A stretch of DNA of 49,367 bases from Thermoplasmata archaeon. Lineage in GTDB: Archaea > Thermoplasmatota > Thermoplasmata > Thermoplasmatales > Thermoplasmataceae. Positions within the stretch are counted from its first letter, which is position 1, and each line of letters begins with the position of its first letter. Of this stretch, positions 5,038 through 15,055 are shown piece after piece. Made by a program: the position numbers and the translations under genes. Location of the stretch: the NCBI GenBank assembly GCA_021817735.1, contig JAKAFX010000002.1:1-49367 (forward strand), written 5' to 3'. The notes under the pieces were generated by a model, which saw only the letters and a list, made by a program, of their open reading frames with translations, was not told where the DNA came from and did not search any database.

Positions 5038-5062
5038 GGATTCACATTCCTGCGAGATGTCA

Positions 5063-5134
5063 GGATAGGTGGCAGAGAGGTCATGCGTGGGACTGCAGAT
5101 CCCATCTACTAGGGTTCAAATCCCTACCTATCCT
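5063..5134 (+). tRNA. tRNA-Cys (anticodon GCA)
   Basis: The sequence folds by eye into a full cloverleaf. The acceptor stem GGATAGG (5063-5069) pairs perfectly with CCTATCC (5127-5133), followed by discriminator T, the expected U73 of tRNA-Cys. The anticodon stem TGGGA/TCCCA encloses the loop CTGCAGA (anticodon GCA). The T-arm is TAGGG/CCCTA with loop TTCAAAT. No CCA is encoded and I see no intron. Its 3' end is the likely integration site of the element that follows, since an integrase gene starts 51 nt downstream. Confidence 0.95.
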
Positions 5135-5185
5135 TTAGGCTATGACTTCACAAATATTCTAATACATCCTTAGATTATCTTTCTC

Positions 5186-6499
5186 ATGAACCCTAAAACA
5201 AGGCATAAAGTTCTCTTAGAGAGTAAGAAAGTGAGACGGTGGTATGAGAATCTTGAAGCGAGATCCCAAGTAACGGCAAACGTCTATCTGCGGAATCTTG
5301 GTCTGTGGCTTGAATATCTGGATAAGGATCCAGAATCAATTATCGAATTTGCGAAGGATGATTTTGAAGAGTTCAAAGGTTCAGTGTCAGATCAGATAAG
5401 GAAGATGGAGAAGGAGAGAAAGCAAGGATCCTATATCTCCACCTCAATCAAGCCAATGATATCATATCTGAAATTTCATAACGTTGTCGTCAAGCTCAGT
5501 CTGAACATAAAGAATGAGAATCGAAACTTCAATGCAGAGCAAGAGAGAATTCCAGAGAAATTCCAACTCAGATCTGTCTTGATGAAGAGTTCAAAGAGAG
5601 AAATGACAGCGATCTCATTGATGGCGTTCTCAGGTCTGAGGCCAGAAGTAATGGGAAATGATGACGGATCAGATGGCTTGAGACTGAAAGACATCCCAGA
5701 CCTGAGTTTGAACGGAGAAATAGATATCAAGGATCCAGCTAAAATCGAAATCAGAGCAGAATTATCCAAAATAAGACTTCCATACTTCACTTTCTTAGGA
5801 AAAGAAGGATGTGATTATCTCAGAGACTATCTGATACAGAGAAAAGAAAATGGCGAAGTTCTCAGTTCTGAGTCTCCTGTGATCCTTCCCATTATTGAGA
5901 AGTCGCAGAAGGAATCCCCTAACGAATTCTTGACTACTGTGCTATTGGCAAGAAGGATCAAGAGATCAATCAGAAAAGCGGGATTTGATTGGAGGCCATA
6001 TATTTTCAGAGCTTATTTTGGAACAAATCTGGATACTGCTGAAGCTAAGGGATTTATCTCTCATTCTCAGAGACAATTCATCATGGGGCATAAGGGAGAT
6101 ATTGAAGAAGTCTATACAAAGCGTCAGAGTGATGTAAAGGTGGATGAGATAAGATCCGCTTATGCTAAATCTCTGCAATTCTTGGAGACAGAGTCAAAGG
6201 GGATATCGGAGAAGGATTCAGTCCGCTTGTTTAGAGAATCAACAATAAGTGCCATAGAGATCTACGCTGATGTCAAGTTGAGCAGTGAGGAGAGAGAAAA
6301 TTTGTTATCTTTAAGTGTGGATGAATTCAATGAGGAGTTAAGAAAAATAGCTAAAAAATCCAAAGCTGACGAAATGAACAATGGCAATTCTCACAAGATT
6401 GTGTCTGAAAAGGATCTCGTTTCATATCTGGATAAGGGGTGGAAGCTGATTCAATACAATCCGAGGGGCGATAAAGCAGTCATAGAGTTGTCAGATTAG
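5186..6499 (+). CDS. Tyrosine recombinase (integrase)
   Basis: A 437-residue site-specific recombinase. Residues ~15-110 look like an N-terminal SAM-like core-binding domain. Catalytic residues visible in the C-terminal domain are Arg152 (SGLRPEVMG), Lys195 (SKIRLPY), Arg275 in the archaeal-style YIFRAYFG box (no His at the usual HxxR position), His302 (IMGHKGD) and the nucleophile Tyr310 (EEVYTKR). About 125 residues follow the tyrosine, a longer tail than in chromosomal XerA. It lies just after tRNA-Cys, reads away from it and is uninterrupted. It should integrate and excise this element. Confidence 0.88.
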   Translation: MNPKTRHKVLLESKKVRRWYENLEARSQVTANVYLRNLGLWLEYLDKDPESIIEFAKDDFEEFKGSVSDQIRKMEKERKQGSYISTSIKPMISYLKFHNVVVKLSLNIKNENRNFNAEQERIPEKFQLRSVLMKSSKREMTAISLMAFSGLRPEVMGNDDGSDGLRLKDIPDLSLNGEIDIKDPAKIEIRAELSKIRLPYFTFLGKEGCDYLRDYLIQRKENGEVLSSESPVILPIIEKSQKESPNEFLTTVLLARRIKRSIRKAGFDWRPYIFRAYFGTNLDTAEAKGFISHSQRQFIMGHKGDIEEVYTKRQSDVKVDEIRSAYAKSLQFLETESKGISEKDSVRLFRESTISAIEIYADVKLSSEERENLLSLSVDEFNEELRKIAKKSKADEMNNGNSHKIVSEKDLVSYLDKGWKLIQYNPRGDKAVIELSD

Positions 6500-7523: not shown

Positions 7524-7931
7524 ATGAGTGAGGAATTGTTGATAAAATTGTTTCCTGAATATAGAGGCTTGGAACAGGAGACAAAGTGTGTGCATTGCTA
7601 TTCCACTGATGTAAAATTCATCGGAATGGTGTATTATCTGGATTTAGACATTGAACGGGATTTTCTCTATGCATGCGAGAACTGTCATAAAGGAATGAGG
7701 ATCACCATTGACACTGCCAAAGATGAGTTTGTAGATGTTCAAGATTACAAATTAGATCCCATCCAGAAAGCTGGATATTTCGAGATATTATCATATTTTC
7801 ACGATTACTTTGGAAGGTCTTGCAAGTTAACGATGATAGCAAAGGGCTACGATCCCAATGACATTGTTAAATTCCGGCGTGACCCAAGCTACAGAGAGTG
7901 GAGAGAAGTTGGTTTGGAGGGGGATAATTGA
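7524..7931 (+). CDS. Zinc-ribbon-like element protein
   Basis: A 135-residue protein with two Cys pairs, KCVHCYS near residues 21-26 and YACENCHKG near 50-56, spaced as in a zinc ribbon. A mixed C-terminal region follows with no family I recognise. It starts at ATG 7524, 1 nt after the stop of the 35-aa ORF, and ends 1 nt before the next ATG (7933). Being directly upstream of a P-loop NTPase suggests a nucleic-acid role in element replication or its control. That is inference from context. Confidence 0.68.
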   Translation: MSEELLIKLFPEYRGLEQETKCVHCYSTDVKFIGMVYYLDLDIERDFLYACENCHKGMRITIDTAKDEFVDVQDYKLDPIQKAGYFEILSYFHDYFGRSCKLTMIAKGYDPNDIVKFRRDPSYREWREVGLEGDN

Positions 7932-7932
7932 G

Positions 7933-9240
7933 ATGACTGAGTCCTTCATAGATAACTACAAGTGGTTTATCTCTACGATAGCGAATACGACTGAAGAATC
8001 TTCAAGAGCAATGCTCCAGTTTCTCATATCTCACGCCCTTTCAAATGCGGAATACAGGAATTCCAAAGGACCTATCAGCGCAAACCTCTCATTCATCTGG
8101 GTCTCTCCTTCTGGATCAAATAAGACTCCTCTTATCGACAACGGAATACGCAAGCTACGTGATACCTTTCCAGAGTTCAGGTTATATGGTGAGTTAACGG
8201 GTAAGGGTTTCCGGCAGTCTCTCGCAAAGATCAAGGATCCAATTGTGAAAGCGCTGATTCTCTGGGATGAGTTCGGCGTTGGAATCAAGACATCTAAGAA
8301 TAGCGGAACTTCGGATCTTTTTGAGGTTTTTTCTATGGCATTTGACGGCCAGCTAATTCCTTATGATTCAGTTCGAAGTGGAGCAGAAAAGTATCCACCT
8401 ATCTACGCTAACTTTTGGCTTTCAGGAGTTCCAGATATCTTGATGCACACTGATAAATCCTTTTGGTATCAGGGATTTGGCTTGCGATCTCTCTTCTTGA
8501 AATATGAATTCCCTGAGAGAAATGAGCCCATATTCGATGATGAGGAGAATATTGCCCAAGCCGAGATCAACTTCGAATCAATGAGAGTGGATCTCGGAAA
8601 GATGAAGCACATACAGAAAATCAGGACTATGGATGAATTCATGATCAAATACAATGAATACAGAGACAAGATTCTCAAAGAGATCCAAGCAGTGCAGAAA
8701 GATATTATCTCCTCCCAAGATCCAGCCAACTTTAGCATCATCTCAAGAGCCAAATTTCCTGTCCTCGTCATGAAACTTTCAATGATCTACGCTGCCTCCA
8801 GATATAATTTCGCTGAAGAAATTCTCACTTTAGAACCTGAAGATCTTCAAACTGCTATTGCAGATCTGGAATCTTATCATAAGAACATGGTTGAGATGTT
8901 TGATGTGTGGCAGGAGCTTGTCGAAACGAAGTCGAGAATCGATAACATCAAGAATGTGAAGGATAAGATCAAGAGACATATCAACACTATCATAGCAAAT
9001 GGAAAGAGCTTCATTCTGACAGAGAGAGAAGATGATGGAGTGAAGGAATATCTTGCCTCAATGAGTGCAGAAGGAAAGTGGGTTCCTCATTCTGCTCTAC
9101 TCAGGAATTCTAACCTGACAAGCAGAAAATTCGCAGAGATAATTGAGACATTAACAGATCAGATTATGATAGCAAAAAGAGATGGAATAATAGAGAAAAA
9201 TGGAGTCAAGCACGTTATAACTTTCTATTCTTTGACTTAA
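7933..9240 (+). CDS. P-loop NTPase, DUF3987-like, probable replication protein
   Basis: A 435-residue protein counted from ATG 7933, which sits 1 nt after the preceding stop; the open frame extends upstream but inside the zinc-ribbon gene. Residues 53-65 (SFIWVSPSGSNKT) form a Walker A-like loop with Asn replacing the usual Gly before Lys. Residues 107-114 (ALILWDEF) form a Walker B. The layout resembles DUF3987-type helicase or primase-associated ATPases of plasmids and proviruses. The last ~90 residues look like a winged helix. As the largest gene of the operon it is the best candidate replication initiator or helicase. The family call is from memory of motif style, not a search. Confidence 0.6.
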   Translation: MTESFIDNYKWFISTIANTTEESSRAMLQFLISHALSNAEYRNSKGPISANLSFIWVSPSGSNKTPLIDNGIRKLRDTFPEFRLYGELTGKGFRQSLAKIKDPIVKALILWDEFGVGIKTSKNSGTSDLFEVFSMAFDGQLIPYDSVRSGAEKYPPIYANFWLSGVPDILMHTDKSFWYQGFGLRSLFLKYEFPERNEPIFDDEENIAQAEINFESMRVDLGKMKHIQKIRTMDEFMIKYNEYRDKILKEIQAVQKDIISSQDPANFSIISRAKFPVLVMKLSMIYAASRYNFAEEILTLEPEDLQTAIADLESYHKNMVEMFDVWQELVETKSRIDNIKNVKDKIKRHINTIIANGKSFILTEREDDGVKEYLASMSAEGKWVPHSALLRNSNLTSRKFAEIIETLTDQIMIAKRDGIIEKNGVKHVITFYSLT

Positions 9241-9940
9241 TTCGTAAAATTCGTATTATTCCTTAAATCCTAATTTTCGCTCAATTCGTAATTAATTAAT
9301 TGAATTAAAAATAGAGATAGAAAATATCTATCTCCAGAATCAATCCAGATTCTACAAGCATTCAATTCGAGCAGATCGATATGAATTTACGAATCCACGA
9401 ATTTTACGAACTGACCGAATTGATAACGATCCATGCAATCATCCTAAACCTTGAGCCTACTCCTTCCGCTCCCGCTCCACTCGCAGTCTTAAGCTTCACG
9501 ATGATTGATAGATCAATATGAGCGAAAAGCTTATTTGTTGCCTATTCGCTTTAAAATAAGCATATTCAACGACATTTTTCCCAATTCGGGTTTTTCTTTG
9601 TATGAATAATCACATGAATTGCATAGTGTAAATCTCACTACCATTCCATTGAGAGTCTTAGAATGTCTATTCTTGCCTTCTCTTTTTCCACAAAAATCAC
9701 AGAGAGACATAGCAGAAAATGTTTTACTCCAACTTCAATTTTGCCATAAAAGAACAACGATCCCGAGCGAAGCGAGGAGAATCTGGACCCACATTATACA
9801 AAAATTACTATAAGTATTGGCCAAATAGCATATTCGTGAGAGACTACAGAGACAAGAGTTCTCTGATTTCAATGAAGGATCTCTATTCATTTGAAAATAA
9901 GGCAAAAATTAAAGCCAACTTATATAATAATATACACACT
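9241..9940. other. 700-bp gene-free region, possible origin
   Basis: I accept no gene here. The first 180 bp are very AT-rich and repeat an AATTCGT/ACGAATT word. TTCGTAAAATTCGT (9241-9254) recurs as its exact reverse complement at 9397-9410, with further copies around 9284-9292 and 9384-9395. A perfect palindrome ATTGAT-AG-ATCAAT lies at 9504-9517, and an inverted pair GCTTATTT/AAATAAGC at 9529-9536 and 9554-9561. A GC-rich mini-palindrome CGAGCGAAGCGAG sits near 9764-9776. The region follows the putative replication ATPase, so it could be the element's origin or a partition site. The end holds the promoter of the DUF5343 gene. Confidence 0.45.
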
Positions 9941-10570
9941 ATGACAGACTATCCGCCTTATATCAATGCGTATGGTCAACTACCACGACTATTCAAGAGA
10001 ATTCGAGAGGCAGATGTGCCGCCAAGATTCACACAGGATTTTCTTTCTTCCGTTTTGGAGATGAAGTCAAGCAGCCACAGACCAATGATTCCTTTCTTGA
10101 AAAGAATTGGATTCTTGGACTCAGCAAACACTCCTACCAAAGCGTATCGGGAGTACAGAGATGAAGAATTAGGGAAATTTGTAATGGCAGAACAAATAAA
10201 GAAGTCATACCAGGATTTATACAAAGCTCATGAATACGCACATACATTAAACAAAGACAACATTGTTTCCAAATTGAGTTCAGTTCTCGGAATAGCAAAG
10301 AATGACAAGACACTGCCGGTAGTAGCATCGACCTTTCTGGAACTATGTAAACTTGCAGATTTCAAGGGTCTTCCAGAGAAAAAAGAACCAGTTAAGGTAA
10401 AGGAAAAGGAGGGGATCTTGCAAGAAAAAAGTGAAGGTGCCCTAACGATAAAAGAAGAAGGTCATAGACTCGGGATTTCCTATACAATCAATCTAAATCT
10501 TCCTCCGGCTACTGATCAGAAAGTCTTTGATGCGATCTTTAAGAGTCTCAAGGAACACTTGCTAAAATGA
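9941..10570 (+). CDS. DUF5343 domain protein
   Basis: A 209-residue protein from ATG 9941. The frame stays open upstream to 9719, but family similarity starts at MTDYPPYINAYGQL. The N-terminal ~130 residues match the DUF5343 pattern: 'lprlfkrIreadVPprfTqdFL', then 'MIPFLKRIGFLDSANTPT..yREYRD', then 'YQDLYKAHEYAHT' and 'TFLELCKLADF'. After a charged linker, the family's C-terminal tail appears as INLNLPPATDQKVFDAIF. The domain is wHTH-like and its function is unknown. An AT-rich TATA-like stretch lies just upstream. The stop overlaps the HEPN gene's start (ATGA), a strong sign of a two-gene unit. Confidence 0.8.
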   Translation: MTDYPPYINAYGQLPRLFKRIREADVPPRFTQDFLSSVLEMKSSSHRPMIPFLKRIGFLDSANTPTKAYREYRDEELGKFVMAEQIKKSYQDLYKAHEYAHTLNKDNIVSKLSSVLGIAKNDKTLPVVASTFLELCKLADFKGLPEKKEPVKVKEKEGILQEKSEGALTIKEEGHRLGISYTINLNLPPATDQKVFDAIFKSLKEHLLK

Positions 10571-11157
10571 CAGATTTTTTTCAGGAAATACTTGATCAGT
10601 TGCGTATTTTCGGCATGGAAAATATCTTCTTAGAAAATGCACTCGATAAGCTCGAGGAGGATGGTATAGACATAGGGAGGGAGTTGAATAAGAAGCACAA
10701 AGACATTGTTGATACAGAATTGTTCGAGAGGGATATACTAACAGACGCACGCAAGATGGCAGACTTCTATGTTATCTATTTCGTTCTTGAGAACAGCGCA
10801 AGGAGAATAATAACAGAAGTCCTTGAGGAAAAGTATGGCACTGATTGGTGGATTAGTGCTGTACCTCAAGGGGTGAAGGAATCAGTAGCAAAGAAGCAGA
10901 AAGAAGAACTAGATTCAGCAATGTCTATTAGATCTGAGGACCCCTTGACATATACTAATTTTGGAGAGTTGATCGACATTTTTAATTCAAAGTGGGATGA
11001 TTTCTCTGACTTGTTCAGAAGCCGTAGATCACTACAAGAAACGTTGTCGCAATTCAATAGAATCAGGAATGTCATAGCTCACAGCTGTACATTGAACGAT
11101 GACGAAATTCAAAGATTCCAGCTTTTGATTAATGATTGGTTCAGGATTCAATCGTAA
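10567..11157 (+). CDS. Swt1-type HEPN protein
   Basis: A 196-residue protein whose residues ~60-195 match the Swt1-type HEPN domain: 'YFVLENSARRIITEVLEEKYG', DWWISAVPQGV, 'YTNFGELIDIFNSKWDDF' and the HEPN RNase motif R167-N-V-I-A-H172 (Rx4H). HEPN proteins are typically metal-independent RNases used in toxin-antitoxin, abortive infection and RNA processing systems. The conserved R and H are present, so it may be active. Its ATG overlaps the DUF5343 stop by 4 nt. The first 55 residues are helical and not assigned. The pairing suggests DUF5343 either controls or targets this nuclease. Confidence 0.8.
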   Translation: MTDFFQEILDQLRIFGMENIFLENALDKLEEDGIDIGRELNKKHKDIVDTELFERDILTDARKMADFYVIYFVLENSARRIITEVLEEKYGTDWWISAVPQGVKESVAKKQKEELDSAMSIRSEDPLTYTNFGELIDIFNSKWDDFSDLFRSRRSLQETLSQFNRIRNVIAHSCTLNDDEIQRFQLLINDWFRIQS

Positions 11158-11908: not shown

Positions 11909-12784
11909 TCAATTCTCATCTAGTGTCACCTCAACTTCTTTCTTCTCGAATCTTTCCCTGAATGACGGATCATCCAGAAACTTCCTCCTGAATTCCCTTG
12001 GAGGAAGATAATCAATGGATGAATGCGGCCTGCATTCATTGTAATCGGAGAATGCCTTCCCTATCTCTATAGAGGCATCATGGAAGTCCCTGAACTCGCT
12101 TGGCCAGATATAATCTGTCTTGATGGAGTTATGGAACGACTCAATGTCTCCATTGTCCTCCGGAGTGTGTTTCTGTATGTATTCAAGCTTGATTCCCAGT
12201 AACTTCATGGCATTCCTGAACTCATGAGATATGTACTGAGGCCCATTGTCTGTCCTCAGTACCAGGCCTTTGGGAACTGATCCATTGAATGCCATGAGAA
12301 CAGAATTCTCCACGGATCTTATGGCATCCTTTGCCATGCATGACCTGGAATAATGAAAGCCCTGCCACTCCTTTGTGAAGCAGTCCTTTATGCACATCAG
12401 ATAAGTCATTCCTGATTCGGTGGGAATGTAAGTGATGTCAGTTTGCCAGAGCTGATCAGGTCCTCGTGGACGGAACAGGTTCCTGGATTTTGTTCTCCCT
12501 CTGTGTCTTGATGCAGGAAGGTTCAGATTGTTATCCTTCAGGACCTTCCTGACAGTCTTCTGGTTCACTTTTGTACCAGAATTACGAAGAACTGCCCACA
12601 CTCTTCTGTATCCATAGGTTGGCCTTTCTGATGCAATGTCTTTGATCCTTTCCCTTGTGGAAGAATCAAGCCTCTGAACGTATTTCTTCACAGGCTTGTA
12701 ATAATATCCGGACAGCGAGATTCCGGATATTCTTGAGATCTCCCTGAGAGACATCTGATCCTTCAGATCTTCAAGAACCATCAT
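11909..12784 (-). CDS. IS3-family transposase OrfB
   Basis: A 291-residue catalytic subunit. An HTH_21-like N-terminal segment (SASGYRRVW-type 'ERPTYGYRRVWAVLR') precedes an rve/DDE core with Asp116 (WQTDITY), Asp179 (LRTDNGPQY) and Glu215 (NGDIESFH), which gives the DD(35)E spacing of IS3. The C terminus has the usual 'YNECRPHSSIDYLPP' motif. All catalytic residues are intact. Its ATG overlaps the orfA stop (ATGA), in the -1 frame relative to orfA. Confidence 0.93.
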   Translation of the reverse strand: MMVLEDLKDQMSLREISRISGISLSGYYYKPVKKYVQRLDSSTRERIKDIASERPTYGYRRVWAVLRNSGTKVNQKTVRKVLKDNNLNLPASRHRGRTKSRNLFRPRGPDQLWQTDITYIPTESGMTYLMCIKDCFTKEWQGFHYSRSCMAKDAIRSVENSVLMAFNGSVPKGLVLRTDNGPQYISHEFRNAMKLLGIKLEYIQKHTPEDNGDIESFHNSIKTDYIWPSEFRDFHDASIEIGKAFSDYNECRPHSSIDYLPPREFRRKFLDDPSFRERFEKKEVEVTLDEN

Positions 12785-13059
12785 TTTGACCTCCCTTGGA
12801 GCCTTTTTTTAAAAGCGTCTATGGCCAGGCTCTGATCTCCTATGATCTTCTTCAGGTCCTCGATCTCCTCGTCTCTTGTATCAGAATTCCTTCTCTGGGC
12901 CAGTGCTGACTTTCCGCCCCGGATGAACTGCTCCCTCCACTTGCTCAGCTGTACGGGATATATGCCGTGCCTCCGGCATATTTCAGCCTGTGTCACATTC
13001 TCGGAGAAGGATTCCATGACTATCTGGAACTTATCTTCAGCCGAATATTTGGACTTCAT
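12781..13059 (-). CDS. IS3-family transposase OrfA
   Basis: A 92-residue helix-turn-helix protein (HTH_Tnp_1 type) that binds the IS ends. It begins MKSKYSAEDKFQIVMES and contains the recognition helix region 'TQAEICRRHGIYPVQLSKWR', followed by a leucine-zipper-like helix. Near its end the coding strand reads TTTTAAAAAAAGG, an A7 run in which ribosomes or polymerase could slip to make an OrfAB fusion. A Shine-Dalgarno-like GGGAGGT before the orfB ATG allows re-initiation instead. Confidence 0.9.
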   Translation of the reverse strand: MKSKYSAEDKFQIVMESFSENVTQAEICRRHGIYPVQLSKWREQFIRGGKSALAQRRNSDTRDEEIEDLKKIIGDQSLAIDAFKKRLQGRSK

Positions 13060-14278: not shown

Positions 14279-15055
14279 ATGGAGGCCATTGACAAGCGAA
14301 TTATTTACTACCTGCTCAAGGATGGCAGGATGTCGCAAAAGAAAATTGCGGAAGAACTTGGCATATCTCCTCAGGCTTTGAACTACAGGTTAAGTAAGCT
14401 TGTAGAGAATGGCCAGATTAAGCGGTTCGCTCTCCACATTGCACCGGAATTCCTTGGCAGAACCCAGGGTTTTGCAGCATTCAGGACAGATATGGACTAC
14501 GAGGAGAATATATTCTCGAGATTCAAATGCCTCGAGGAAATCACAATCCTTGGATTTCATGGCAATGAGAAAATGGACTTGAATAGTGCCATGGAAAAAG
14601 CATATCAAAAACTGGGAAAACCCATTATGAACTATACTCCACCACCCAACCAAGAGGTCAGGAACGTGGGCAAGACTGACAGGAACCTTATAGAGATTCT
14701 CAAGAATGATCCAAGGGCACCCATCTCTTCAATAGCGAAGCGCCTAAGCATTTCAAATTCTTCTGCAAAGAAGAGGCTCAATCATCTCAAGGATATGCGT
14801 ATTGCTTCAGTGATCCCGATCCTTGACCTGAGCAAGACGGATGCAGTGATCTACCTGCTATTCAGCGATAAGTCAAGAGAAGTTCTCCCTGCAATTGTCC
14901 AATCACTGATTTTCCAGATCTCAGACGGGAAATCGTCAATATCCGTTTGTTACTCAGATTCCCTAGAGCAGGCCAAGAAAAGCATCAAGAATGTCAGAGA
15001 CGTTGATGAGAAGTCTCAGGTCATGGTAGTATACGACTATGACTTTCTCAACTGA
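14279..15055 (+). CDS. Tandem winged-helix regulator, Lrp/AsnC-like
   Basis: A 258-residue protein with two AsnC-type DNA-binding domains. The first is at residues ~1-50 (IDKRIIYYLLKDGRMSQKKIAEELGIS). The second is at ~134-180 (TDRNLIEILKNDPRAPISSIAKRLSIS...KRLNHL). Each is followed by a short alpha-beta region rather than the standard Lrp effector domain. Tandem wHTH regulators of this kind are common in Thermoplasmatales and related archaea. Its 3' end overlaps the convergent MMPL gene by 19 nt, which permits antisense effects between the two transcripts. Ligand and targets are unknown. Confidence 0.8.
   Translation: MEAIDKRIIYYLLKDGRMSQKKIAEELGISPQALNYRLSKLVENGQIKRFALHIAPEFLGRTQGFAAFRTDMDYEENIFSRFKCLEEITILGFHGNEKMDLNSAMEKAYQKLGKPIMNYTPPPNQEVRNVGKTDRNLIEILKNDPRAPISSIAKRLSISNSSAKKRLNHLKDMRIASVIPILDLSKTDAVIYLLFSDKSREVLPAIVQSLIFQISDGKSSISVCYSDSLEQAKKSIKNVRDVDEKSQVMVVYDYDFLN

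Follow-up and report, generated by a model that had tools for sequence, protein, structure and literature searches.

A DUF5343–HEPN gene pair from a Thermoplasmata archaeon belonging to the candidate defence system PDC-M34, and the conserved tail as a probable HEPN-docking piece

The window (the whole stretch of DNA that was analysed, 49,367 nucleotides from a Thermoplasmata archaeon) carries two adjacent genes on the same strand, gene A and gene B, which encode a DUF5343 protein and a Swt1-like HEPN protein. The features considered here are the following:

5062..5135, + strand: tRNA-Cys(gca), identified by ARAGORN; left boundary of an integrated element
5186..6499, + strand: integrase-like gene (437 aa) directly after tRNA-Cys, weak matches only
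9941..10570, + strand: gene A (PDC-M34A), 209 aa, start ATG, DUF5343 protein
9941..10363, + strand: DUF5343 body of gene A (residues 1-141), 40-69% identity among the four Swt1-paired relatives; basic, pI ~9.1
10364..10468, + strand: hypervariable linker of gene A (residues 142-176), 0-29% identity among the same four relatives
10469..10567, + strand: conserved C-terminal tail of gene A (residues 177-209, 33 residues), 64-79% identity among the Swt1-paired relatives; proposed HEPN-docking element
10567..10570, + strand: ATGA overlap, the start codon of gene B lying within the final four bases of gene A
10567..11157, + strand: gene B (PDC-M34B), 196 aa, Swt1-like HEPN protein
10789..10791, + strand: codon of E75 of gene B, an acidic residue that precedes the catalytic motif and is invariant in five homologues
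11065..11082, + strand: R167-N-V-I-A-H172 of gene B, HEPN RNase motif (Rx4-6H with a polar residue after R)

Residues 6-143 of gene A match DUF5343 (Pfam PF17278, E=9.1e-48), and the Pfam search indicates that the protein is not a nucleotidyltransferase. A longer frame that opens at 9719 was rejected as the start of the gene, since the relatives start at the residue equivalent to 9941. The region that is most conserved among the relatives is not the body but the C-terminal tail, from which the body is separated by the hypervariable linker. In the Swt1-type pairs, the body is basic (pI 8.6-9.3) and most of the HEPN partners are acidic. A preliminary description of this DNA had recognized both the DUF5343 body and a characteristic C-terminal tail in the first gene, as well as the ATGA overlap, which is read directly from the sequence; all three were borne out.

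Gene B matches HEPN_Swt1 (Pfam PF18731) over residues 73-193 (E=1e-11; 45.5 bits for a curated cut-off of 27.5). The signature of HEPN RNases consists of Rx4-6H, a polar residue after R and an acidic residue located upstream (PMC3710099). Among five homologues (the four pair members and one homologue from a cyanobacterial plasmid), E75, R167 and H172 are invariant, while N168 is found in four and replaced by H in the fifth. Such an invariance agrees with what an active HEPN RNase should show (PMC3710099). Gene B therefore appears to encode a HEPN RNase with intact catalytic residues, its RNase activity being predicted from these residues. The intact motif that had been noticed in the second gene is thus found at its exact position, and its R/H pair is conserved.

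Both proteins match profiles of PADLOC-DB 2.0.0. Gene A matches PDLC04589 (PDC-M34A; 1.9e-56, positions 1-207 of 208) and gene B matches PDLC04592 (PDC-M34B; 1.4e-44, positions 4-188 of 192) as well as PDLC04590 and PDLC04591. Judged by these profiles, the pair belongs to the candidate defence system PDC-M34, of which it is an archaeal representative. The PDCs are PADLOC candidates that were obtained by 'guilt-by-embedding' in known defence systems and are mostly unvalidated (PMC12988326, PMC10855318). As the pair is already present in this database, the association of its two genes is not a new discovery. The suggestion that the two genes form a candidate defence module therefore holds for the two-gene arrangement and the intact HEPN site, but the association itself was already catalogued. 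Likewise, the system had been presented as poorly described: no paper or experiment dealing with DUF5343 or PDC-M34 was found in the literature searched (the PADLOC source preprint lies outside its coverage), but PDC-M34 does have a database entry. No description of the body-linker-tail anatomy or of the alternative HEPN partner described below was found in the papers searched. What is new in PDC-M34 is the testable anatomy of gene A, the kind of system being already known.

DUF5343 is rare in the genomes examined, being found in 3 of 293 Thermoplasmatota genomes and in 4 of 350 genomes of a class-level draw (the two draws overlap); the PDC-M34A model detects 5 of 371 genomes of the phylum that includes the Woesearchaeota match. 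The pair with a Swt1-type HEPN gene, with the same order and strand, was found in four archaea belonging to two phyla: in the window (ATGA overlap), in a woesearchaeote (L006; 13-base gap), in L009 (11-base overlap) and in L031 (ATGA overlap). The side-by-side recurrence of the two families anticipated by the preliminary description is therefore real. Adjacency to a Swt1-HEPN gene in two of the five Thermoplasmatota loci would have a chance probability of ~4e-9, a value based on ~1.9e-5 per gene, as derived from the 10 of 293 Thermoplasmatota genomes that match the M34B profile and from an assumed ~1800 genes per genome. Over the four loci, the divergences of A and B are correlated (r=0.95 from six non-independent pairs); identities that drop together are as expected of a pair travelling as a unit. 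An open profile scan of genome contigs gave two archaeal loci, and the recurrence described here concerns archaea. Scans of IMG/VR with DUF5343, the HEPN set and the tail detected no relatives, and tblastn searches of plasmids and phages revealed only the Swt1-HEPN of one cyanobacterial plasmid, devoid of DUF5343, and one Spirosoma match to the alternative HEPN. Two other candidates (L029 and L030) were discarded as chance matches in what appear, from their sequence, to be YchF-type GTPases.

The occurrence of the tail follows that of the HEPN genes. A HEPN gene directly follows all six tail-bearing DUF5343 genes and none of the four tail-less ones (one-sided Fisher p=0.005, for a test of ten loci that was framed after the first loci had been seen and in which related loci are not independent events). 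The partners of the tail-bearing genes are Swt1-type in four cases and belong to another HEPN type in two. In these two loci (L004 and L010), the DUF5343 protein carries a recognizable tail and the next gene encodes a HEPN-like protein (P0006 and P0013) with the motif KRNEC[AG]HP and weak matches to PD-T7-3 (7e-6 and 1e-3). The tail-bearing proteins reach the end of the PDC-M34A profile, whereas the tail-less ones cover it only to position ~173 or less. No HEPN-like neighbour was found for the tail-less genes (L003/L007, L011, L012 and L032). A search with the tail only, in 145 genomes, retrieved just the two known DUF5343 genes, the remaining matches being due to chance. Being both conserved and tied to HEPN neighbours, the tail is probably the piece by which a regulator or sensor docks on the HEPN protein, a binding that is suggested by comparison of sequences.

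Two further arrangements of DUF5343 were observed. In L003 (991-1935) and L007 (6001-6945), the body is fused to an apparent multi-pass membrane domain. In L036 (7041-8015, genome G486), the gene after a distant tail-less DUF5343 gene encodes a HicA toxin (PF07927, 2e-9); it lies on the same strand, separated by 27 bases, and is possibly another toxin partner or a chance neighbour.

The pair is tentatively viewed as a two-gene RNase-toxin or abortive-infection module of PDC-M34, a plausible reading in which gene B would be the effector and gene A its regulator and sensor. The following model of its action can be drawn. Gene B would encode a dimeric HEPN endoribonuclease acting as a toxic effector, controlled by the product of gene A. 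The basic DUF5343 body of the latter may be a binding site for nucleic acid or for a molecule of the invader, and the flexible linker would join it to the conserved tail docked on the HEPN protein. As the genes overlap, both proteins would be made together, so that the RNase would be kept inactive until an infection cue. This cue would act on the DUF5343 body and free the HEPN protein, which would then cut RNA and stop the cell or the virus. The antiviral role is suggested by the PADLOC association and by what is generally known of HEPN proteins. As to gene A, its position before gene B and the overlap argue for an antitoxin-like function, and the exchange of partners between HEPN types argues for a general sensor or adaptor.

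Judging from this exchange, HEPN RNases of more than one kind may be partners of DUF5343. A broader scheme, possible although somewhat doubtful, is that the tail is a general docking plug through which the body controls different HEPN RNases (Swt1-type or PD-T7-3-like), the body being also re-used on membrane anchors. If this were true, DUF5343 would serve archaeal and bacterial immunity as a modular sensor. The same data bear on a different and rather unlikely reading, according to which DUF5343 is a targeting or activating subunit: its body would recognize an invader nucleic acid or protein and its tail would bring the HEPN RNase, gene B alone being harmless. Such a subunit would fit the presence of the tail with two different HEPN types, that of the body on a membrane protein, as for a general sensor, and the contrast between a basic body and mostly acidic Swt1-type partners. 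However, no target is known, and sequence does not separate an activator from an inhibitor of gene B, inhibition being presumed in the model above.

The pair is probably located inside an integrated element. Collinearity with a genome of the same genus (G171) stops at position 5137 of the window, i.e., at the 3' end of tRNA-Cys; in another genome of this genus (G1028), the contig itself ends inside tRNA-Cys. The integrase-like gene that follows has a weak match to the PHROG 1 integrase (3.4e-4) and one, below cut-off, to the SAM-like N-terminus of phage integrases (0.043). The GC content decreases from ~0.48-0.50 before tRNA-Cys to ~0.37-0.41 after it, up to ~12 kb. A second copy of the tRNA 3' end, as expected at an attachment site, was not found towards the right of the element. 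The integrated element that had been proposed therefore has a left edge, but as its right edge was not found, membership of the pair is only probable. Just downstream of the element genes lies an IS-type transposase pair (11909-13059; two-gene arrangement with an rve integrase core), and the right end may have been disturbed by it. Another gene of the element (7858-9240) encodes a 460-aa protein of no clear family with, as judged by eye, a degenerate P-loop-like GSNKTP near its start; this is possibly a replication protein. Further downstream, an AsnC/Lrp-like regulator gene (14279-15055) is partly repeated, with 97% identity, on a second contig of this genome (G000:C7, 9099-9506), either as a duplicate or as an assembly artefact.

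The main functional rival of the abortive-infection model is pure maintenance of this element. The pair would be a plain toxin-antitoxin module made of a HEPN toxin and a DUF5343 antitoxin, which would stabilize the integrated element and be selected for its maintenance rather than for defence. Overlapping genes with the antitoxin first are typical of toxin-antitoxin modules. Both this order and the location in an element inserted at tRNA-Cys agree with maintenance, but the three other Swt1-type pairs have ordinary chromosomal surroundings, which are not defence islands, and no integrase was noted nearby. As read from the sequence, the L006 pair lies among genes for MCM and DNA polymerase D subunits, and the pair lies amid mixed genes in L033 and L037. 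Such surroundings, being no defence islands, count against the abortive-infection model as well. Furthermore, the listing by PADLOC is due to embedding in defence systems (PMC12988326). A role limited to maintenance is considered unlikely. In favour of a role in defence, one of the tail-bearing pairs with an alternative partner has genes for a PLD-family protein and a DNA methylase next to it.

For the claim that the genes lie behind their own promoter, no convincing placement of an archaeal promoter was found. The best TATA-like octamer starts only 22 bases upstream of the ATG of gene A, so that the implied transcript would start inside this gene; a sigma-70 promoter scan is not applicable, the host being archaeal. 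Structure prediction gave little information on the fold of either protein. The AlphaFold2 models of gene A (3-sequence alignment, pLDDT 43) and gene B (2-sequence alignment, all-helical, pLDDT 61) are too poor to assign a fold or an interface, because the alignments are shallow. Foldseek searches of the PDB with both models detected nothing at E below 0.7. Solved structures were also searched with profiles of DUF5343 (full and core) and of the HEPN set, and nothing significant was detected; a weak DUF5343 match to 1sfx (archaeal AF2008, a winged-helix regulator; E 0.063) is only a lead for a winged helix. A highly improbable reading is that DUF5343 does no more than autoregulate its operon as a DNA-binding transcription factor, with the tail as a dimerization element and not a HEPN dock: the 1sfx match and the order of the helices, which is of low confidence but would allow a winged helix, might point to it, but the tail is absent exactly where DUF5343 has no HEPN neighbour, no winged helix was matched when solved structures were searched with core profiles, and no operator-like repeat was found upstream of gene A in three of the four pairs (window, L006 and L031).

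The two-gene RNase-toxin or abortive-infection module remains the preferred, tentative reading. The anatomy of gene A makes PDC-M34 a testable model, in which E75, R167 and H172 would be used for catalysis and the tail, residues 177-209, would serve to dock. The analysis also places PDC-M34 in two archaeal phyla in which few defence systems have been characterized.

Among known systems, PDC-M34 is the closest: gene A and gene B cover both component profiles almost over their full length and are adjacent on the same strand, and no difference was found between the pair and this unvalidated candidate. With the HEPN_Swt1 or Abi2-Swt1 group (PF18731; Anantharaman et al. 2013, PMC3710099), gene B shares Rx4-6H, the polar residue after R and the upstream acidic residue. 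Eukaryotic Swt1 differs by a HEPN dyad that is likely inactive and by the presence of a PIN domain (PMC3710099). Moreover, many Swt1-HEPN domains of Thermoplasmatota belong to longer proteins, whereas the protein encoded by gene B is small, separate and accompanied by DUF5343. Such longer and varied proteins were seen in L014, L016, L018 and L021, that of L018 being a STAND/NB-ARC ATPase and that of L021 being DndB-like.

PD-T7-3 is a validated defence protein listed with a HEPN domain (Vassallo et al. 2022, PMC9519451). Its N-terminal part is weakly matched by P0006 and P0013, the alternative partners, but PD-T7-3 is much longer (432-position profile), and gene B of the window does not match its profile at E up to 10. 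Type II toxin-antitoxin modules, in which the gene for an antitoxin with a DNA-binding domain and a tail for the toxin precedes that of the toxin, fit in gene order, linker and tail; a DNA-binding fold of gene A would agree with the low-confidence order of its helices, but core-profile searches did not detect one. Finally, AbiJ-type Abi proteins and HEPN-MNT pairs resemble the proposed module in placing a HEPN RNase under the control of a variable part with a regulatory or sensor function, which has been proposed for the N-terminal domains of AbiJ (PMC3710099). In the pair described here, the regulator would instead be a DUF5343 protein that is encoded by a separate gene and is not a nucleotidyltransferase.
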